This document shows, piece after piece, positions 57,318 to 64,000 of a DNA stretch of 64,000 nucleotides. This stretch comes from Goekera deserti. GTDB taxonomy: Bacteria; Actinomycetota; Actinomycetes; Mycobacteriales; Geodermatophilaceae. The stretch lies in the NCBI RefSeq assembly GCF_010685995.1, contig NZ_JAAGWK010000011.1:1-64000 (forward strand). Direction: 5' to 3'. The position numbers and the translations under genes were made by a program. Below the pieces are notes generated by a model. It did not search any database and had not been told where the DNA came from. It saw nothing but the letters and a program-made list of their open reading frames with translations. The stretch's first letter is position 1; each line of letters opens with the position of its first letter.

Positions 57318-57340
57318 TCAGCCGGGGGCGCCGGCCCGGC
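57179..57340. repeat. 38-bp tandem repeat, four copies plus a partial one
   Basis: Units begin gccggcccgg at 57179, 57217, 57255 and 57293, then again at 57330 after a 37-base unit. Each carries gcgcggaggcgcccgtcagc with few changes. The last copies run into the 3' end of the MFS gene and include its stop codon (tca at 57318), so the array may have grown by duplication of that gene end. gcgccggcccggcgc within each unit is self-complementary and could act in termination. Confidence 0.8.
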
Positions 57341-58625
57341 TCGCCCGCGCCGCGACCAGCGAGAGGGCACCCACCACGCCGACGGCGGAGAACAGGTAGA
57401 AGCCCCACGGGAAGGCCAGACCCGCGGTGAGCAGGGCACCGGTGATCACCGGCCCGGTGATGGCGCCGATGCGACCGGCGCCGGCCGACCAGCCCAGCGC
57501 GGTGGCGCGCACCTGCGGCGGGTGGTTGGCGCTGACGAAGGCGTAGACCAGCACCTGCGCGCTGAACACGAAGCAGCCGGTCAGGAACACCATGACGTAG
57601 ATGCCGGCGATCGGCAGCCGCACCGACAGCAACGCCAGGAAGACCGCGGCGGCGGCGAACCACCCGATGCCGGCGGCCCGGATGCCGATCCGGTCGGCGA
57701 CCCGGCCGGCGACCAGCAGCCCGACGATCGCGCCCACGTTGAGCACCAGCAGGAAGGCCAGCGCGTCGCCCAGGTCGTAGTCGGCCTCCCGCATGATCGT
57801 GGGCAGCCAGTTGTTGAGCCCGTAGACCAGCAGCAGGCCCATGAACGAGGTGAGTCCGACGACCAGCGTGGTGCGGCGGTAGGCCGACCCGAACAGCGTG
57901 CCCAGCGTGGACGTCGCCTCCGGCGCGCCACCGGCGTCGAGGGCCGGCTCGGCCAGGGCGAGCCCGTGCTGCGCGGCGACCCGCTCGGCGTCCGCGCGCC
58001 GTCCGGTGGCCAGCAGGTGGGCCGGGGACTCCGGCAACCGGCGCAGCATCAGCGGCACCACGACCAGCGCGGGCAGCGCGCCGATGACGAACATCCAGCG
58101 CCAGCCCAGCGGCTCGACGACGACGATCGCCAGCCCGGCGGTCAGCACCGCGCCCACGTGGTAGCCGGTCATCACCCGGGTGGTGGCCTGCCCGCTGCGG
58201 CTGCCGCGGGAGAACTCGTTCACCATGGCGATCGCGGTCGGCAGGCAGCCGCCCAGCCCGAGCCCGGCCAGGAAGCGCAGCGCACCGAACACCTCGGCGT
58301 TCGGCGCGACCGCGCACAGCAGGGTGAACAGCGAGAAGAACGCCACGGCCCCGATCAGCGCCCGGCGCCGTCCGAAGCGGTCGGTGAGCGCACCGGTGGC
58401 GAGCGCGCCGATCATCATGCCGACCAGCCCGATGGTGACCACGGCGGTGGCGCCGCCGGGTGACAGGTCGTACCCGGCCGGCGTGCGCAGCGTGGGCACC
58501 ACGGTGCCGACCACCACCAGGTCGAACCCGTCGAGCAGGACCGCCACCCAGCACAGCGAGGTCACCCAGCCGGCTCCCCGGCCCCGGCGGCTCTCGTCCT
58601 GCTCGTGCAGGGGTGTGCTGACCAT
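57318..58625 (-). CDS. MFS transporter, aromatic acid:H+ symporter type
   Basis: A 435-aa MFS protein with 12 helices. It carries the AAHS-type signature DGFDLVVVGTVVPTL in helix 1, GALTDRFGRRRALIG in loop 2-3 and LGGCLPTAIAMVNEF in helix 4. Relatives import benzoate, 4-hydroxybenzoate or protocatechuate. ATG at 58625 (MVSTPLHEQD) follows ggagg with good spacing; a longer frame to 58688 is less likely. Its 3' end lies in a tandem repeat array. Confidence 0.85.
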   Translation of the reverse strand: MVSTPLHEQDESRRGRGAGWVTSLCWVAVLLDGFDLVVVGTVVPTLRTPAGYDLSPGGATAVVTIGLVGMMIGALATGALTDRFGRRRALIGAVAFFSLFTLLCAVAPNAEVFGALRFLAGLGLGGCLPTAIAMVNEFSRGSRSGQATTRVMTGYHVGAVLTAGLAIVVVEPLGWRWMFVIGALPALVVVPLMLRRLPESPAHLLATGRRADAERVAAQHGLALAEPALDAGGAPEATSTLGTLFGSAYRRTTLVVGLTSFMGLLLVYGLNNWLPTIMREADYDLGDALAFLLVLNVGAIVGLLVAGRVADRIGIRAAGIGWFAAAAVFLALLSVRLPIAGIYVMVFLTGCFVFSAQVLVYAFVSANHPPQVRATALGWSAGAGRIGAITGPVITGALLTAGLAFPWGFYLFSAVGVVGALSLVAARASRAGAPG

Positions 58626-58783
58626 GGGGGGACCTCCGGTGTGGGCGTCGGACCGCGCGGCGGCGCGGACCGGCACGACCGGGGGCACCGGCCGTGCCCG
58701 ACGACCTTAGGAACCGGTGCGGACCGGCACCACCCGGGGCCACCCGGCGCGGGGCGTCGGGGCGGGGCGTCGGGGCGGGCGGC

Positions 58784-59494
58784 TCAGCCCAGGGCGTCCA
58801 GCACCGTGCGCGCAGCCGGCCCGGCGAGCAGCGGCTCCCCCAGCCCCGCCAGCGCCTCGCGCATGGCGTCCGGGCCGCCGAACTGGAAGCCGAGCTGGGT
58901 GGTGTAGCAGGCGCAGGCGTCGGCCCGCCGTCCCCGGTCACCCGGCAGCTCGCGGGTCTGCACCCCGCCGGGCAGGTGCGCCCCGGGGACGGCGTCCGGC
59001 GCGCGCAGCACGTAGGGGCTGTCCCGCCACCAGGCGGTCGGCCGGTCCAGCGAGGCGACCGCGCGCAGCACCTGCAGGTGGTCGACGTGCCCGCCGAGGC
59101 CCTGCGGGGCCAGCCACAGGTCGGCCTCGTACCCGGTCAGGGCGTCGGCCAGCTGCCGCCACAGGTCGTCGCCCGGGTGCACGCCGGCGAACAGGTCACC
59201 GGCGCTGATGTAGCCCCGGTGCGGTGCCTCGGGCAGGTCCAGGTGCACCGGGTGGGCGCCGAGCACGGCCATGGCGGCGGCGTCCTCGGCCCGGCGCAGC
59301 GCCATGTAGTCGACGTCGGGCCCCAGGCCCTTGTCGGTCTGGCAGGCCAGCGCGAAGCCGGTCGGGTCGGGCACGCTGCGGGTGAGGCAGGTCAGCACCG
59401 TCACCTCGTGCCCGGCGTCGGCGAGCACCGCCAGCGTGGCGCCGACGGAGAACGCGGCGTCGTCCAGGTGCGGGCTGACCGCCAGCACCCTCAC
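58784..59494 (-). CDS. PIG-L family deacetylase
   Basis: A 236-aa zinc-dependent deacetylase of the LmbE/PIG-L family. The metal/catalytic motif is SPHLDDAAF near the N-terminus, with GGHVDHLQV as the second His pair. Relatives remove N-acetyl groups from sugars (MshB in mycothiol, BshB in bacillithiol, or GlcNAc-containing antibiotics). ATG at 59494 overlaps the stop of the glycosyltransferase gene (ATGA), making it the last gene of the YcaO operon. A GT4 enzyme followed by PIG-L is the MshA-MshB logic, but the acceptor here must differ. Confidence 0.88.
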   Translation of the reverse strand: MRVLAVSPHLDDAAFSVGATLAVLADAGHEVTVLTCLTRSVPDPTGFALACQTDKGLGPDVDYMALRRAEDAAAMAVLGAHPVHLDLPEAPHRGYISAGDLFAGVHPGDDLWRQLADALTGYEADLWLAPQGLGGHVDHLQVLRAVASLDRPTAWWRDSPYVLRAPDAVPGAHLPGGVQTRELPGDRGRRADACACYTTQLGFQFGGPDAMREALAGLGEPLLAGPAARTVLDALG

Positions 59495-60699
59495 AGCAGG
59501 TGGGCCGCAGCCCGGAACCGGCAGGTGCCGTCGACCTCGTCGGGCAGGGTCCAGCCGGTGTCCGGGGTGGTGCCGGCCAGGGCCCGGTACTGCGCGTCGA
59601 CCGCCCGGGCGAGCACCGGCCAGGAGTAGAGCCGGCGCACCTCCTCCAGGGCGGTGCCGGCCAGCCGCGCGCGCAGCGCCCCGTCGCCGAGCAGCCGCTC
59701 CAGGGTCTTGCGCAGGCCGGGCACGTCGCCGGGCTCGTGCAGCAGGCCGTCCACGTCGCTGGTCAGGCAGTCGACGACCCCGACGCTGTCGGTGCTGACC
59801 ACCGGCAGGCCGCTGGCCATGGCCTCCAGGATCGTGTTGGAGAAGCCCTCGCTGTAGGTGGGGCTGACGAACACGTCGGCCCGCCGGTACACCGCGGGGG
59901 CGTCGGTGGGGTGCACGTAGCCCAGGAACTCGGTGCGCCCGTCGGCCCGCGCCCGTGCCTCCTCCAGGTCCGGGCCGATCCCGGAGACCAGCAGCCGGAC
60001 GCCGTCCGGCAGCGCCTCCAGCAGGTCCAGCACGCCCTTGCGCCGGTCGACCCGGCCGTGGAAGAGCAGCACCGGCGGGTCGGCCAGGCTGCCCAGCGGG
60101 CGTGGGCCCGGGGTGAACCGGGCGGTGTCGGTGGCGCCGGGGACGATGGTGAACCGGGCCGGGTCGGTGCCCAGGTTCGCGACCACCTCGTCCCGAAAGC
60201 TGGCCGAGCCGATCAGCACTGCGCCCGCGTGGTCGAGCACCGCGGTCATCGCGGCGTGGTGGGTGGTGCAGCAGGTGCCCACCCAGTGCCCGTCGCCGCC
60301 CTGGATGCTGACCAGGTTCGGCACCCCGGTCTCCCGGGAGGCGGCCAGCACCGCCAGGCCCGGTGGGTAGCCGTACTGCGCGTGCAGCACGTCGAACGGC
60401 GCCTCGGCGTGCAGCTCGACCACCGCACGGGTCAGCTCGGCGGTGTCGGCCTCGAAGTCGGCCGGCACCACCGTCTCGCCCCGGCTGGGCAGCGCGACCA
60501 CCCGCACCCCGGCCGGCACCCGCTCGGCCGGCGGCGGCCCGCCGCCGTAGACGGCGGTGCCCGCGGCGTCGTCCCGGTACTGGCTGACCAGGACGACGTC
60601 GTGCCCCAGCGCCACGAGCTCGCGCAGCAGGTTCTCCGCGTACACGCTCATGCCGCTGACGGCCGGCCAGTACCGCCGGCTGACCAGGCAGATCCTCAC
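59491..60699 (-). CDS. GT4 family glycosyltransferase of the YcaO operon
   Basis: A 402-aa GT-B enzyme. VRICLVSRRYWPAVSGMSVY opens the acceptor domain, and VLLFHGRVDRRKGVLDLLEAL and SEGFSNTILEAMASGLPVVS form the donor-binding part. GTG at 60699 overlaps the TIM-barrel stop (GTGA), and its own stop overlaps the PIG-L start. Likely transfers a sugar, possibly N-acetylated since a deacetylase follows, to a small-molecule acceptor. Donor and acceptor are inferred. Confidence 0.88.
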   Translation of the reverse strand: MRICLVSRRYWPAVSGMSVYAENLLRELVALGHDVVLVSQYRDDAAGTAVYGGGPPPAERVPAGVRVVALPSRGETVVPADFEADTAELTRAVVELHAEAPFDVLHAQYGYPPGLAVLAASRETGVPNLVSIQGGDGHWVGTCCTTHHAAMTAVLDHAGAVLIGSASFRDEVVANLGTDPARFTIVPGATDTARFTPGPRPLGSLADPPVLLFHGRVDRRKGVLDLLEALPDGVRLLVSGIGPDLEEARARADGRTEFLGYVHPTDAPAVYRRADVFVSPTYSEGFSNTILEAMASGLPVVSTDSVGVVDCLTSDVDGLLHEPGDVPGLRKTLERLLGDGALRARLAGTALEEVRRLYSWPVLARAVDAQYRALAGTTPDTGWTLPDEVDGTCRFRAAAHLL

Positions 60700-61559
60700 G
60701 GTGCGATGCCGGCGGCGGCCTCCGCCTTGGCGAGGGTGTCCATCGCGGTCGGGATCATCTCGTTGGCCCGACCGGAGTCGCTGGACAGCTCCAGGGTGAC
60801 CAGCTTGTCGTAGCCCACCTCGGCCATGGCGCTGAGCACGGCCACCAGGTCCAGGTCGCCCTCGCCGAGCGGCAGGTGGGTGTGCACGCCCCGCGCCATG
60901 CCCTCCAGGGCGATGCTGCCCAAGTGCGGGGCGAAGGCGCGCACCGCGTCCTCCGGCTCGAAGGCACCGCCCACGATGCAGTGGCCGGTGTCCAGCGCCA
61001 GGTCGACGCCGGGTACCCGCTCGTGCAGGGTCGCCCACTCGCCGGCGTCGCCGACCAGCATGCCCGGCTCGGGCTCGATCGCCAGGGAGTAGCCGCGCCC
61101 GCCGTGGCTGTCCACCAGCGCCTGCACGCCCTCCACCGCCCAGGCCCAGGCCTGCTCGGGGCTGGTGTGCGGCCCGGGCACGCCGGTCCAGAAGCTGACC
61201 GCCTCGGCGCCGAGGACCTCGGCCAGGTCGCAGGACAGCCGCAGGTAGGCCAGCCGGCGGGCCCGCGCGTCGGCGTCGGCGGTGACCAGCGTCGGCTCGT
61301 GCTTGACCCTCGGGTTCAGCAGGAACTTGGCCCCGGTCTCGATCACCACGCCCAGCCCCAGGGCGTCGCAGCGGGCCCGCAGCGCCTCGGCGCGGGCCAT
61401 CACGTCGGGCACGAACGGGTCGAAGTGGTTGACGTCCAGGGTCAGCGCGACACCGGCGTAGCCGTTCTCGGCCAGCATCTCCACCGCGTCGTCCAGGCGG
61501 TGGTGGGCCAGGCCGTTGGTGTTGTAGGCGTACCGGAAGTGGTGGGCGGTGGAGGTCAT
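60696..61559 (-). CDS. TIM-barrel sugar phosphate isomerase/epimerase-like protein
   Basis: A 287-aa AP-endonuclease-2-type TIM barrel. GYAGVALTLDVNHFDP, GVVIETGAKFLLNPR, YSLAIEPEPGMLVG and VDLALDTGHCIVGG carry the expected metal ligands, and VTLELSSDS closes the barrel. Such proteins isomerise or epimerise sugars, inositols or keto acids. ATG at 61559 overlaps the YcaO stop. In this operon it probably prepares or modifies the polyol or sugar part of the product. Confidence 0.83.
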   Translation of the reverse strand: MTSTAHHFRYAYNTNGLAHHRLDDAVEMLAENGYAGVALTLDVNHFDPFVPDVMARAEALRARCDALGLGVVIETGAKFLLNPRVKHEPTLVTADADARARRLAYLRLSCDLAEVLGAEAVSFWTGVPGPHTSPEQAWAWAVEGVQALVDSHGGRGYSLAIEPEPGMLVGDAGEWATLHERVPGVDLALDTGHCIVGGAFEPEDAVRAFAPHLGSIALEGMARGVHTHLPLGEGDLDLVAVLSAMAEVGYDKLVTLELSSDSGRANEMIPTAMDTLAKAEAAAGIAP

Positions 61560-63016
61560 GCCAGCTCCTTCTGCAGGTGGAGGGCCACGACGTGGCGGCC
61601 CGGTTCGCGGTACAGGGCGTAGAGGTCGCCGACCCGGGCGTCGGCCCCGGCACGGTCGAACCAGGCGGGGCCGCCGAGGCGCTGCTCGGCGTCGGCGGTG
61701 AGCAGCACGCGCGCCCAGCCCCCGGGGTCGCTGCCGACGGCGACGAGCGGGTCGCCGCGCTCCAGCAGCCGGGCCACCCCGCGCTCGCCGATCCGGCCGT
61801 AGCTCATCGTCTCGACCTCCAGGCCGGGCACGACCGCCTTGGCGGCCACCGCCTCGCCGTCGGAGGGCTGCAGCTGGACCAGCACGTCCAGCCCCTCGGC
61901 GTGTAGGCCGCCGACGACGTGGGCGTGCAGGTCGTCTCCGGACCAGCGCGGCAGGTCGGCCAGCCGCACCGTCGAGCGCCGGGACAGCACCGTGTCCCGC
62001 AGCCGGTCGACCAGGTCGCCGGTGGGCCGGCGGGCCCAGTCCAGCATCGCCCGCAGTGCCCGGTCCTCCTCGGCCAGTCGGTCCGGCGGGTGCCCGGCGG
62101 TCCAGGCGTCGAGGTAGCCGGGCGGGGTGGCCCGCGCGACGACGTCCAGCGGGCCGTGCATCAGGGCCTTGCGGCTGCGGGCGGCGACGAACTCGTGCAG
62201 CGCCTTGCGGACCGCGGCCTCCCGGTCGGGGTGCGCGGCCTCCCCGCAGGCGGTGGCCATCACCGGCACCGGCTCGCTGCCGTCGCGCGAGCAGCCGACC
62301 GCGTACACGTCGACGACGCCGTGCTCGGTGCTGGCCAGCTTCACCACCACGTCGATGCCGGCGGCGTCCAGCCGGGCCAGCAGCGCGCGGGAGTCGGGGT
62401 CGGTGACGCCGTCCAGGTCGACGACCACACCCCGGTCCATCGCCCGGAAGCCGGTGGCGTTGCCGTCGCGCTGCAGCATCTCCAGCAGGGCGTGCGCGAC
62501 GGCGGCGTCCGGGTCGGTGTGCGCGCCCTGGCCGTTGCTGATCGGGGTGGTCAGCCAGCCACCGGGCGGCGGCGCACCCGGCAGGTCGTCGGGGGTGGAG
62601 GCGACCAGCTCGGCGGGCACGAGCACCTGCTCGCCGTCGCGCAGCCGGGTCATCGGCAGCCACTGCAGCGGGCGGTCGGGCGTGTAGTCCGACCCCGCCT
62701 CCAGGCAGAGGGTGAGCGGGTCGGCCACCCGGTCGGCGCTGCGCCGGGCGACGAGCTCGGCGTAGGAGGCCTGCACCCGCTCCTGCGGCTGCAGTGCCCG
62801 GCCGGACAGCGCCATCTCGGTCATCTCACCCAGCGCGCCGGTGCGGGCCTCCTCCGCGGTGGCGCCGTAGCCCAGGCCGGACCCGCCGGGGTGCCCACCG
62901 GTCGCCGCGACGACGGCGCTGTGCAGGTGCACCTCCAACACGTCCATGCCGACCACCGGGAACTCGGTGACCGAGCCGGCCGGGTAGGAGGCCAGGTACC
63001 GCTCGGCCGGGGTCAC
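61556..63016 (-). CDS. YcaO domain protein
   Basis: A 486-aa YcaO family protein. The ATP-binding motifs are in GYGATAEEARTGALGEMTEM and ISNGQGAHTDPDAAVAHALL, then EMLQRDGNATGF. YcaO enzymes activate amide carbonyls with ATP to make azolines, thioamides, amidines or related groups. The C-terminal PxPxP tail of azoline-forming members is absent; it ends LHLQKELA. No precursor peptide or E1-like partner is seen in the window. The C-terminal 150 residues (EVETMSYGRIGERGVARLLE) extend the usual domain. GTG at 63016 follows ggaggag and overlaps the stop of the metallo-beta-lactamase-fold gene. Confidence 0.9.
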   Translation of the reverse strand: MTPAERYLASYPAGSVTEFPVVGMDVLEVHLHSAVVAATGGHPGGSGLGYGATAEEARTGALGEMTEMALSGRALQPQERVQASYAELVARRSADRVADPLTLCLEAGSDYTPDRPLQWLPMTRLRDGEQVLVPAELVASTPDDLPGAPPPGGWLTTPISNGQGAHTDPDAAVAHALLEMLQRDGNATGFRAMDRGVVVDLDGVTDPDSRALLARLDAAGIDVVVKLASTEHGVVDVYAVGCSRDGSEPVPVMATACGEAAHPDREAAVRKALHEFVAARSRKALMHGPLDVVARATPPGYLDAWTAGHPPDRLAEEDRALRAMLDWARRPTGDLVDRLRDTVLSRRSTVRLADLPRWSGDDLHAHVVGGLHAEGLDVLVQLQPSDGEAVAAKAVVPGLEVETMSYGRIGERGVARLLERGDPLVAVGSDPGGWARVLLTADAEQRLGGPAWFDRAGADARVGDLYALYREPGRHVVALHLQKELA

Positions 63017-63888
63017 GACAGCTCCTCCAGCGGGACGGGGCCGGCGTCCGGGCGCCCCGCGAGCAGCCGGTCGACCAGGTGCACGACGTGCTCGGTGGTC
63101 ACCCCGACGACGCCCTCGAACGGCGTGTAGACCGCGCCGAAGTCCAGCTCGGCGACCACCCCGCGGTACTCCCGCAGCTCGGCGTGGCTCAGCGGGATCT
63201 GGGCGTGGAAGGCCTTGTGCGCGCTCAGCGCCACCGGGGCGCCGGCGTCGTCCAGGTCGACCTTGAGCGCGTCGCCGCAGAACAGCACGCCGCGGCGGGC
63301 GTCGTGCAGCACGCTGTGCCCGGCGAAGTGCCCGCCGGTGCGGTGCATGGTCAGCCCGGGCGCCAGCTCCAGGGTCTCGTCCACCGGCCAGGTGACCCGG
63401 AACGCCTTGGTCCAGGTCAGGTCGCGCACGCCGATCGCCACCGTGGCCGGCTCCAGCTCGGCCTGCAGCTGCCACAGCGCGCCGTAGCCGTGCACGTGGC
63501 TGGAGGCGAGCACGTCCAGCCCGCCGTGCTCCCCGGCCATCCGTCGCAGCTGCGCCAGCGCCTCGGCCGAGTACCAGGGCGCGGCCTCGAAGCCGACCAG
63601 GCCGGCGTCGGTCTCGATCACCCAGCCCCGGCTGTCCAGGCCGAAGCGCGGCGTGCAGCCGAAGCCGGTGATGCCGGCGACCGCGCTCGGGCCCCAGTGC
63701 GAGGTGACCTGGGCGTCGACCTCCTTGGCGGTGACGAACTCGAAGCCGTGCTCCGGCAGCGCGTTGCGCACGTCGGCGCAGACCGGGCAGGTGAGCGGCC
63801 CGGGGGCCGGCCAGCGCTGCCAGTGCCCGCAGTTGGTGCAGGCGTAGGCCGGCAGGTCGGGCAGCAGCCCGCGGTAGGGGTTGGTCAC
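63013..63888 (-). CDS. zinc-ribbon metallo-beta-lactamase-fold protein
   Basis: A 291-aa protein. The first 40 residues contain a rubredoxin/zinc-ribbon-like pair CTNCGHW and CPVCADV. An MBL-fold domain follows, but the normal HxHxDH metal motif is altered to SSHVHGYGALW, keeping the HxH pair and losing the Asp and third His. Downstream ligands look kept in GGHFAGHSVLH and FCGDALKVD. It may bind one metal or act as an esterase/oxidoreductase variant. GTG at 63888 overlaps the upstream gene's stop; the end overlaps the YcaO start. Confidence 0.8.
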   Translation of the reverse strand: MTNPYRGLLPDLPAYACTNCGHWQRWPAPGPLTCPVCADVRNALPEHGFEFVTAKEVDAQVTSHWGPSAVAGITGFGCTPRFGLDSRGWVIETDAGLVGFEAAPWYSAEALAQLRRMAGEHGGLDVLASSHVHGYGALWQLQAELEPATVAIGVRDLTWTKAFRVTWPVDETLELAPGLTMHRTGGHFAGHSVLHDARRGVLFCGDALKVDLDDAGAPVALSAHKAFHAQIPLSHAELREYRGVVAELDFGAVYTPFEGVVGVTTEHVVHLVDRLLAGRPDAGPVPLEELS

Positions 63889-64000
63889 GAGGGGACTCCG
63901 GTTCTGGGTGCGGATGCGGGTGCGGCGCTGCCGAGTGCGTCGAGCAGCAGCCGGTGCAGGCCGAGGTCGCGGGCGGCCGGGTACGGCCAGGGGGCGCGGC
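63885..64000 (-). CDS. C-terminal end of the upstream gene in the YcaO operon (partial)
   Basis: The frame RAPWPYPAARDLGLHRLLLD, then ALGSAAPASA, ends at a TGA (63887-63885) that overlaps the GTG of the metallo-beta-lactamase-fold gene, like all other junctions in this operon. The rest lies beyond the window. The fragment is too short to identify. Confidence 0.6.
   Translation of the reverse strand, partial: RAPWPYPAARDLGLHRLLLDALGSAAPASAPRTGVPS

Follow-up and report, generated by a model that had tools for sequence, protein, structure and literature searches.

The operon of Goekera deserti

The sequence studied, hereafter the window, is positions 1-64,000 (64,000 nucleotides, forward strand) of the Goekera deserti contig NZ_JAAGWK010000011.1; genes past position 64,000 were read as well. 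An operon centred on a gene for a YcaO enzyme runs across its right-hand end (Table 1). An earlier note, made from the sequence alone, had described a six-gene operon at this place, formed by a partial gene and genes for an MBL-fold protein, a YcaO, a TIM-barrel isomerase/epimerase, a GT4 glycosyltransferase and a PIG-L deacetylase. All the named genes are present on the minus strand, with Pfam matches that agree with the families given, and the overlaps between the six are real; the gene total had to be raised, since extension of the contig rightward added a methyltransferase and an HD protein to the unit. The operon thus has eight genes here (HD, methyltransferase, Gfo/Idh/MocA, MBL, YcaO, TIM, GT4 and PIG-L) and nine in most relatives. 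The partial gene, for its part, is a true operon member, identified as a Gfo/Idh/MocA dehydrogenase truncated by the window end. Six junctions are 4-base GTGA or ATGA overlaps, and inner stops are absent from every gene. The downstream gene of an MFS transporter (57318-58688) is not kept alongside the operon in the other loci compared, and was rejected as a member.

Table 1. Genes of the YcaO operon on contig NZ_JAAGWK010000011.1
Product	Position	Strand	Remarks
PIG-L family deacetylase	58784-59494	minus	236 aa, final operon gene; Pfam PF02585, 4.6e-16
GT4 glycosyltransferase	59491-60699	minus	402 aa; Pfam PF13692, 1.8e-29 (scored on a longer frame)
Xylose-isomerase-like TIM barrel	60696-61559	minus	287 aa; AP_endonuc_2 PF01261, 2e-30
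YcaO	61556-63016	minus	486 aa; PF02624, 1.4e-52
MBL-fold protein	63013-63888	minus	291 aa; Lactamase_B PF00753, 1.9e-6
Gfo/Idh/MocA dehydrogenase	63885-64955	minus	63885-64000 inside the window (3' end)
Methyltransferase	64952-65977		beyond the window; GTGA overlap with the Gfo/Idh/MocA gene
HD protein	65989-66954		beyond the window; 11-base gap to the methyltransferase gene

Conservation, co-occurrence and neighbouring genes

In most relatives the operon is headed by a gene for myo-inositol-1-phosphate synthase (INO1), the ninth of the unit. All nine genes are contiguous and ordered in 23 of the 27 Geodermatophilaceae loci, and 15 of 25 loci of the Methylobacterium family are contiguous and ordered as well, the MBL gene excepted. 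The nine are also found in order in 4/6 f19 loci, in Roseomonas and, by tblastn, in a locus of 46% GC (L101); a second actinomycete family has the same order, and the operon of Hymenobacter is mostly intact. At all eight junctions a 4-base overlap is more frequent than any other spacing, though it barely leads between the methyltransferase and Gfo genes (8/37 versus 7/37 for 7 bases). In one locus (L092) the MBL gene sits at the opposite end. Between-gene distance correlations reach rho values of 0.71-0.87 over 47 loci, a set that includes two duplicate genomes (L027=L054, L018=L055) and is not corrected for the species tree. In a plasmid search (72,556), the Roseomonas GT4 alone retrieved at 1e-60 the identical four records that the window YcaO retrieved at 1e-20. 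The YcaO tree is a quick one with long Hymenobacter and Roseomonas branches, and no transfer routes were drawn from it.

The MBL-fold protein has an N-terminal four-cysteine ribbon, and HxHxxGA replaces the canonical MBL motif, HxHxDH; its structure model is poor (mean pLDDT 46). In alphaproteobacteria its gene is mostly unlinked from the operon, while in one locus (L042) a single ORF fuses Gfo and MBL. Strong matches (E<=1e-70) occur in 21 of 22 YcaO-positive and in 0 of 177 YcaO-negative genomes (Fisher 2e-27), two draws of 199 genomes being taken as one set, since their handles agree, and limited candidates being scored per genome (7 in one search, 12 in the other). Fourteen of those 21 genes lie on another contig than YcaO, and three more lie over 400 kb away. 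Because it tracks YcaO across genomes though mostly unlinked, its distribution strongly suggests that the MBL protein serves the same pathway. The arrangement of the genes is more than chance, since the order recurs across three phyla. The single pathway proposed in the earlier note is supported.

An NAD-dependent epimerase (Pfam Epimerase, 1.9e-56), labelled UDP-glucose-4-epimerase-like by eye, is found in the flanks of 15/27 Geodermatophilaceae loci, and the Methylobacterium family gave three weak matches to it (24-26% identity). In Roseomonas, a glucosyltransferase annotated as MdoH comes after the operon. In six distinct Geodermatophilaceae loci an ABC-2-type permease-like gene (a label given by eye) lies upstream of INO1 on the opposite strand. 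Ada/AlkA genes are near the operon in nine distinct loci of the 27 from Geodermatophilaceae, and a uracil-DNA-glycosylase-like gene in 11/25 from the Methylobacterium family; as a functional link these DNA-repair neighbours were discounted, being lineage-specific and possibly plain synteny.

Links with stress responses were found in a single alphaproteobacterial family, the one examined for the promoter and spore-photoproduct-lyase (SPL) associations. An EcfG-like promoter precedes the operon in 12 of 21 Methylobacterium-family loci versus 1/177 in the background, shared ancestry uncorrected; the sites read AGTT in 10/12 and CGTT in 2/12, and the positive loci include near copies, L056 and L082. 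No such site was found upstream in Geodermatophilaceae (0/24), f19 (0/6), Roseomonas, Hymenobacter or the Frankineae MAG. Genes of the SPL family are present in 13/22 operon-bearing versus 1/177 other genomes, again with ancestry uncorrected, and are missing at the search threshold from the remaining 9/22; in L080 and L040 they adjoin the operon. As for LexA-type sites, GTTC-N7-GTTC occurs in 5/21 Methylobacterium-family upstreams versus 0/177, and none was found in 24 Geodermatophilaceae upstreams.

Enzyme assignments and alternative products

Among the enzymes presumed to act on the ring, the TIM barrel resembles IolE and 3-epimerases in the PDB, though weakly, and its residues E164, D190, H193, H226/H228 and E257, which we take to be the metal site, are invariant in 13/13 aligned rows. 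K110, D197 and H201 of the Gfo/Idh/MocA protein are invariant in the alignment, and presumably functional. The HD protein itself has no Pfam match, its relatives matching HD_3 weakly (0.0018 and 0.015). Its structure model is usable (pLDDT 77): Foldseek found nothing at E<=0.001, while VIA-align ranked HD phosphohydrolases first (Z 11.5 for 4dmb, 9.9 for YfbR, 2pau), a Z of 11.5 being below the value of about 13 deemed telling for a mostly helical model and folds outside the list being possible. Phosphatase activity is doubtful, because the motif reads HH where H...HD...D is expected. Family membership alone cannot fix the substrates of Gfo, TIM, GT4, PIG-L or MBL.

The YcaO family is known almost exclusively for modifying peptides, which are also the usual substrates of its bacterial members. 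The window protein has the YcaO domain sought in RiPP/TOMM pathways and matches a SagD-family model at 3.5e-27, so that a peptide precursor encoded elsewhere, or too short or divergent for detection, had to be considered. The SagD score, however, is under the cut-off (95.3 versus 219.25 bits), and no short ORF is common to lineages in the 2.5-kb flanks of 19 loci: among the ORFs of <=130 aa, 48 match one other locus, 12 match two and none more, the between-lineage matches being the INO1 start and one 27-aa pair (BLASTP at 1e-4, a comparison that very short or divergent peptides can escape). Moreover, Pfam recognised no E1-like/ThiF, TfuA, RRE or PqqD partner among the operon genes, and INO1, Gfo and TIM would have nothing to do in such a pathway, which is highly improbable. 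The precursor and E1-like partner that, according to the earlier note, would have made this an ordinary RiPP cluster were looked for in these flanks and operon genes and not found. With no shared short flank ORF and no E1-like or TfuA gene in the operon, the pathway is probably YcaO-based and non-peptide, acting on inositol and an amino sugar, and the view that this is no standard RiPP locus appears sound.

Mycothiol assembly begins with INO1, a GT4 and a PIG-L enzyme, and the earlier note had read the last two as mycothiol/bacillithiol-type logic. That logic is upheld, because INO1 joins them in the operons of relatives. The further suggestion of a low-molecular-weight thiol-like cofactor, into which YcaO would insert sulfur or for which it would activate an amide, fares less well. 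It could draw on MJ1094, the nearest solved YcaO, which we take to be thioamidating, and on the best, if weak, NCBIfam matches of PIG-L, which are Mca, BshB1 and MshB; nevertheless, every score is far under its equivalog cut-off. GT4 reaches 60.7 bits against MshA (cut-off 462.5) and 60.9 against BshA (273.7), PIG-L 18.4 against MshB (224.35) and 21.4 against BshB1 (182.5), and the relatives' operon INO1 45 bits against the mycothiol INO1 model (638). GT4 also matches five PDB sequences at 1e-10, PimA included, and gave an ATPgrasp_N match (0.0042) under that model's cut-off. Apart from the operon, the genome has a genuine MshA (638 bits) and a genuine INO1 of the mycothiol type (678 bits, contig C58), the latter being the sole INO1 found there. 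In addition, no operon gene matches the families of the MshC cysteine ligase or the MshD acetyltransferase (Pfam, NCBIfam), and we know of no place for Gfo, TIM or the methyltransferase in the mycothiol and bacillithiol pathways. The low scores and the genome's own MshA and mycothiol INO1 rule out mycothiol as the operon product, and a related thiol is quite unlikely.

An aminocyclitol or aminoglycoside antibiotic would suit the inositol, amino-sugar and possible amidine chemistry, since kasugamycin-type structures combine all three. It is very unlikely, as no exporter or resistance gene is evident among the neighbours shared by all lineages (clustered, few of them annotated), though there is the permease-like gene near INO1 in Geodermatophilaceae, and occurrence in several phyla, a stress-type promoter and the SPL association suit a protectant better. 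A compatible solute or a modification of cell-surface glycans, to which the flanking epimerase and the Roseomonas glucosyltransferase would point, is unlikely too: YcaO, Gfo, TIM and MBL would jointly be left unexplained, and the epimerase is no cross-lineage operon member.

Proposed pathway and comparison with known systems

The best explanation, with a probability of roughly 0.55, is that this is a horizontally spread operon for a small non-ribosomal metabolite made from inositol and an amino sugar, probably produced during light or drying stress, which may act as a protectant against sunlight or drying. From what was directly observed (gene content, order, conservation, co-occurrence and the lack of a shared short flank ORF), we infer the following reactions, their sequence and the protective role. 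INO1 would form inositol-1-phosphate; the inositol link would thus depend on a gene that the window's own operon is without, and in Goekera the mycothiol INO1 could supply the compound. The HD protein would remove the phosphate, Gfo/Idh/MocA would form an inosose through oxidation of a ring alcohol, the TIM barrel would isomerise or dehydrate the inosose to an enolone, and the methyltransferase would add a methyl group. YcaO, with ATP, might then activate the enolone or amide oxygen, an amine (or sulfide) displacing the phosphate, to give a product of amidine, enaminone or imine type; the thioamide, amidine or azoline supposed in the earlier note is likewise hypothetical. Finally, GT4 would attach a GlcNAc-like sugar, to be deacetylated by PIG-L, and MBL would catalyze some metal-dependent step.

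A bolder version, less likely than not, is that the product is a sunscreen made by a biosynthetic route of a new class, with an inositol-derived cyclohexenone or cyclohexenimine chromophore bearing glucosamine, in which YcaO, rather than an ATP-grasp or NRPS enzyme, would couple ring oxygen and amine through ATP; its genes would have been transferred horizontally among sun-exposed actinomycetes, alphaproteobacteria and Hymenobacter. If true, it would provide candidate genes for the UVA-absorbing compounds of leaf bacteria and a further route to natural sunscreens. More generally, a nine-gene unit in three phyla, with inositol and amino-sugar enzymes, would bring YcaO chemistry into carbohydrate metabolism and provide a defined gene set for testing. 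In one open literature collection, YcaO was found together neither with mycosporine nor with inositol-3-phosphate synthase, and with Methylobacterium or Geodermatophilus it appeared, among the matches listed, in the context of berninamycin.

Mycothiol biosynthesis resembles the proposed pathway in uniting INO1, GT4 and PIG-L, but the operon's enzymes belong to other subfamilies, MshC and MshD are unrecognised, and YcaO, Gfo, TIM, methyltransferase and MBL are added in a unit that coexists with the true MshA and INO1. The archaeal MJ1094 is the closest solved profile match of the window YcaO (6pe3, 1.8e-22), and presumably thioamidates McrA glycine without an E1-like partner; the window protein differs in its score against the McrA-glycine thioamidation model (TIGR03266, 58.7 versus 365 bits), in its motif (QRDG for the ERDA of MJ1094 in the alignment) and in its setting, a sugar/cyclitol operon. 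The genes for mycosporine-like amino acids comprise EVS or DHQS, an O-methyltransferase, an ATP-grasp enzyme and a Ddl or NRPS ligase. Their pathways share with the one proposed a sugar-derived ring, methylation and an ATP-dependent amine condensation, but Pfam recognised no EVS/DHQS-like cyclase, ATP-grasp or Ddl/NRPS ligase among the operon genes, the methyltransferase being generic; in the proposed pathway INO1 would provide the ring, and YcaO would carry out the ATP step. The operon occurs in Methylobacterium (M. aquaticum and M. bullatum), a genus reported to produce methylobamine and further compounds that absorb UVA, and at a guess the sunscreen of methylobacteria could be methylobamine.

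Organisation and conservation of the operon

The window covers positions 1-64000 of contig C48 in the Goekera deserti genome (G000; 4.84 Mb, high GC). With the sequence beyond it included, the YcaO operon comprises eight minus-strand genes. Six of its junctions are GTGA/ATGA overlaps and the HD-methyltransferase gap is 11 bases, so that the single overlapping unit described in the earlier note stands, while its size has been extended from six genes to eight.

Genes of the Goekera deserti operon, contig C48
Gene	Coordinates	Strand	Pfam
HD-like protein	65989-66954	-	no match at 0.1 for the window protein
Methyltransferase (MT)	64952-65977	-	Pfam family
Gfo/Idh/MocA dehydrogenase (GFO)	63885-64955	-	Pfam family
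MBL-fold protein (MBL)	63013-63888	-	Pfam family
YcaO	61556-63016	-	Pfam family
TIM barrel	60696-61559	-	Pfam family
GT4	59491-60699	-	Pfam family
PIG-L	58784-59494	-	Pfam family

Searching with the window YcaO gave 29 named loci, of which 25 belong to Geodermatophilaceae, three to Methylorubrum and one to a Frankineae MAG; the syntenic order is INO1-HD-MT-GFO-MBL-YcaO-TIM-GT4-PIG-L, where INO1 is myo-inositol-1-phosphate synthase. The locus table holds 61 loci, leaving out the duplicates L054 and L055; L101 is also not among them. All nine genes are contiguous and in order in 23 of the 27 Geodermatophilaceae loci, the exceptions being L004 and L021, which start within the operon at a sequence edge, L053, with no called TIM barrel, and the window's own operon, which lacks INO1, unlike most loci of the family. 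Upstream of 66954, a divergent alpha/beta-hydrolase-like gene (labelled by eye) occupies the place of INO1; an aromatic-acid-type MFS transporter (window 57318-58688, same strand) lies 3' of the operon and is not conserved with it.

Fifteen of the 25 Methylobacterium-family loci hold every gene except MBL, eight in all, and the other ten hold shorter runs, some at contig ends; in L092 the MBL gene is out of order, at the operon end. Four of the six loci of a second actinomycete family (f19) hold all nine genes, including L040, in which the Gfo call is broken up and the PIG-L call shortened; L041 is truncated by a contig end, and L042 10726-12651 is a single 641-aa ORF fusing Gfo (2-329) with MBL (368-641). 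A Roseomonas haemaphysalidis plasmid carries nine of nine genes. The plasmid of Hymenobacter volaticus (source 'air') carries INO1, HD, a Gfo split in two, MBL, YcaO, TIM, a GT4 without annotation and PIG-L, with no methyltransferase among the operon genes. In the Frankineae MAG the YcaO is separate from an INO1-HD-MT block cut by the edge of its sequence, and in L101 (46% GC) the nine genes, overlooked by the gene caller, were found in order by tblastn. The co-occurrence of families to which the earlier note had looked is thus borne out, the order being kept in Geodermatophilaceae, f19, Roseomonas and, minus MBL, the Methylobacterium family.

Distribution of the YcaO and its unlinked partners

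At E<=1e-60, the YcaO profile matched 41 of 112 genomes of the window's family: 32 at 1e-223 or better and nine, all from genus g8, near 1e-140, the operon being absent from the three of these nine inspected (L050-L052). Ten of 396 genomes matched in the phylum sample (the window's own, six f19 with the operon and three without), 22 of 199 in the Methylorubrum family and 2 of 289 in the class sample of Methylorubrum. A second YcaO group lies outside the nine-gene operon (L046 9191-10693, L047 9037-10539, L049 1-1494, L050 9536-10963, L051 9658-11070 and L052 9402-10814), close to sugar ABC transporter genes (labelled by eye) in L046 and L050-like loci; a polysaccharide-deacetylase-like gene is nearby, matching PF01522 at 3.2e-8 in L046 and without a Pfam match in L050.

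The MBL gene of the Methylobacterium family is usually outside the operon, and a profile search found one in 8/8 operon-bearing genomes tested. At E<=1e-70 over 199 genomes there were 21 matches, all within the 22 YcaO-positive genomes; the remaining one, G981, has an operon contig of 5.4 kb. Matches near 1e-42 in two YcaO-negative genomes are probably paralogues. The association, uncorrected for ancestry, gives a Fisher value of 2e-27, or 4e-25 counting weak matches. Fourteen of the 21 genes are on another contig than the YcaO, three more than 400 kb off, three within 8 kb and one (genome G834) in the operon, and six MBL neighbourhoods compared had no other gene in common beyond pairs of loci. 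A plasmid search with the Roseomonas GT4 alone gave four records, identical to those obtained with the window YcaO.

Possible links to stress responses

The motif GGAAC-N17-GTT, whose spacing was derived from the loci themselves ahead of comparison with published motifs, stands upstream of INO1 in 12 of 21 Methylobacterium-family loci; among 177 upstream regions taken from other genes of these loci, one has it. Eight alternative spacings reached at most 1/21 loci and 3/177 background sequences, and first-order random sequences gave the motif in a mean of 0.17 loci and never in more than 2. The spacers are diverse (mean identity 0.45), L056 and L082 being near copies. Published motifs are GGAAC-N16-CGTT (PMC7083833), GGAAC-N17-20-GTT (PMC6599016) and, for M. 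extorquens, GAAC-N16,17-C/GGTT (PMC4814048). In ten of the 12 promoter-like sites an A replaces the expected C or G. The motif is absent upstream in 24 Geodermatophilaceae, 6 f19, Roseomonas, Hymenobacter and the Frankineae MAG. GTTC-N7-GTTC, which we take to be alphaproteobacterial LexA-like, was also seen upstream of INO1 in 5/21 Methylobacterium-family loci versus 0/177 background sequences.

Spore-photoproduct lyase (SPL) family genes (TIGR03886) are present in 13/22 operon-positive versus 1/177 operon-negative genomes (Fisher 8e-14, not corrected for ancestry), and adjoin the operon in two lineages, Roseomonas (L080 17630-19751, two genes) and L040 (18363-19415). Going by its name, this family would repair UV lesions; methylobacteria, according to PMC9664959, produce UVA-absorbing compounds, methylobamine among them.

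Flanking DNA-repair genes differ lineage by lineage. Eleven Methylobacterium-family loci, L028 (14495-15136) among them, have a uracil-DNA-glycosylase superfamily gene, and nine Geodermatophilaceae loci, such as L009 (15529-17028), have Ada/AlkA. In six distinct Geodermatophilaceae (L002, L006, L009, L015, L018, L019), an ABC-2-type permease-like gene lies upstream of INO1 on the other strand, accompanied by an ATPase and a response-regulator-like gene (labels by eye).

Pathway readings and enzyme features

A separate true MshA and mycothiol INO1 in the same genome speak against mycothiol assembly by the operon. With the MshA model the true MshA scores 638 bits and the operon GT4 57.5, and the INO1 on contig C58 passes the mycothiol cut-off (678 vs 638 bits). 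The INO1s in the operons of L002 and L028 reach 45 bits; the thiol-like cofactor suggested earlier is not supported in its mycothiol version. As to an ordinary peptide substrate, the conserved precursor ORF that the earlier note proposed to look for did not appear, no short ORF being common to different lineages in the operon flanks compared. A shared, mobile YcaO pathway acting on inositol and an amino sugar, probably peptide-free, is well supported as anatomy; its chemistry is what we infer from it, and its product may be protective, the stress associations being uncorrected for ancestry.

The L002 INO1 matches a solved synthase at 3.3e-84. Gfo K110, D197 and H201 are invariant in 12/12 alignment rows, as are TIM-barrel E164, D190, H193, H226, H228 and E257 in 13/13, the latter protein weakly matching PDB entries of IolE and 3-epimerases. 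The HD protein has the motif HH, its relatives show weak HD_3 Pfam matches (0.0018 and 0.015), and HD phosphohydrolases head the structural rows for its predicted model, with Z middling for a helical model. In MBL, four cysteines are invariant in 10/10 rows and the canonical motif HxHxDH is reduced to HxHxxGA.

The window YcaO scores under the cut-offs of every named family matched, and its best solved match is MJ1094 (6pe3, 1.8e-22). Q182, R183 and D184 are invariant in 15/15 rows, and QRDG also occurs in the transporter-linked YcaOs L046, L047, L049, L051 and L052 (QRHG in L050). The Glu of known YcaOs binds metal; the operon family has QRDG at the position of MJ1094's ERDA.
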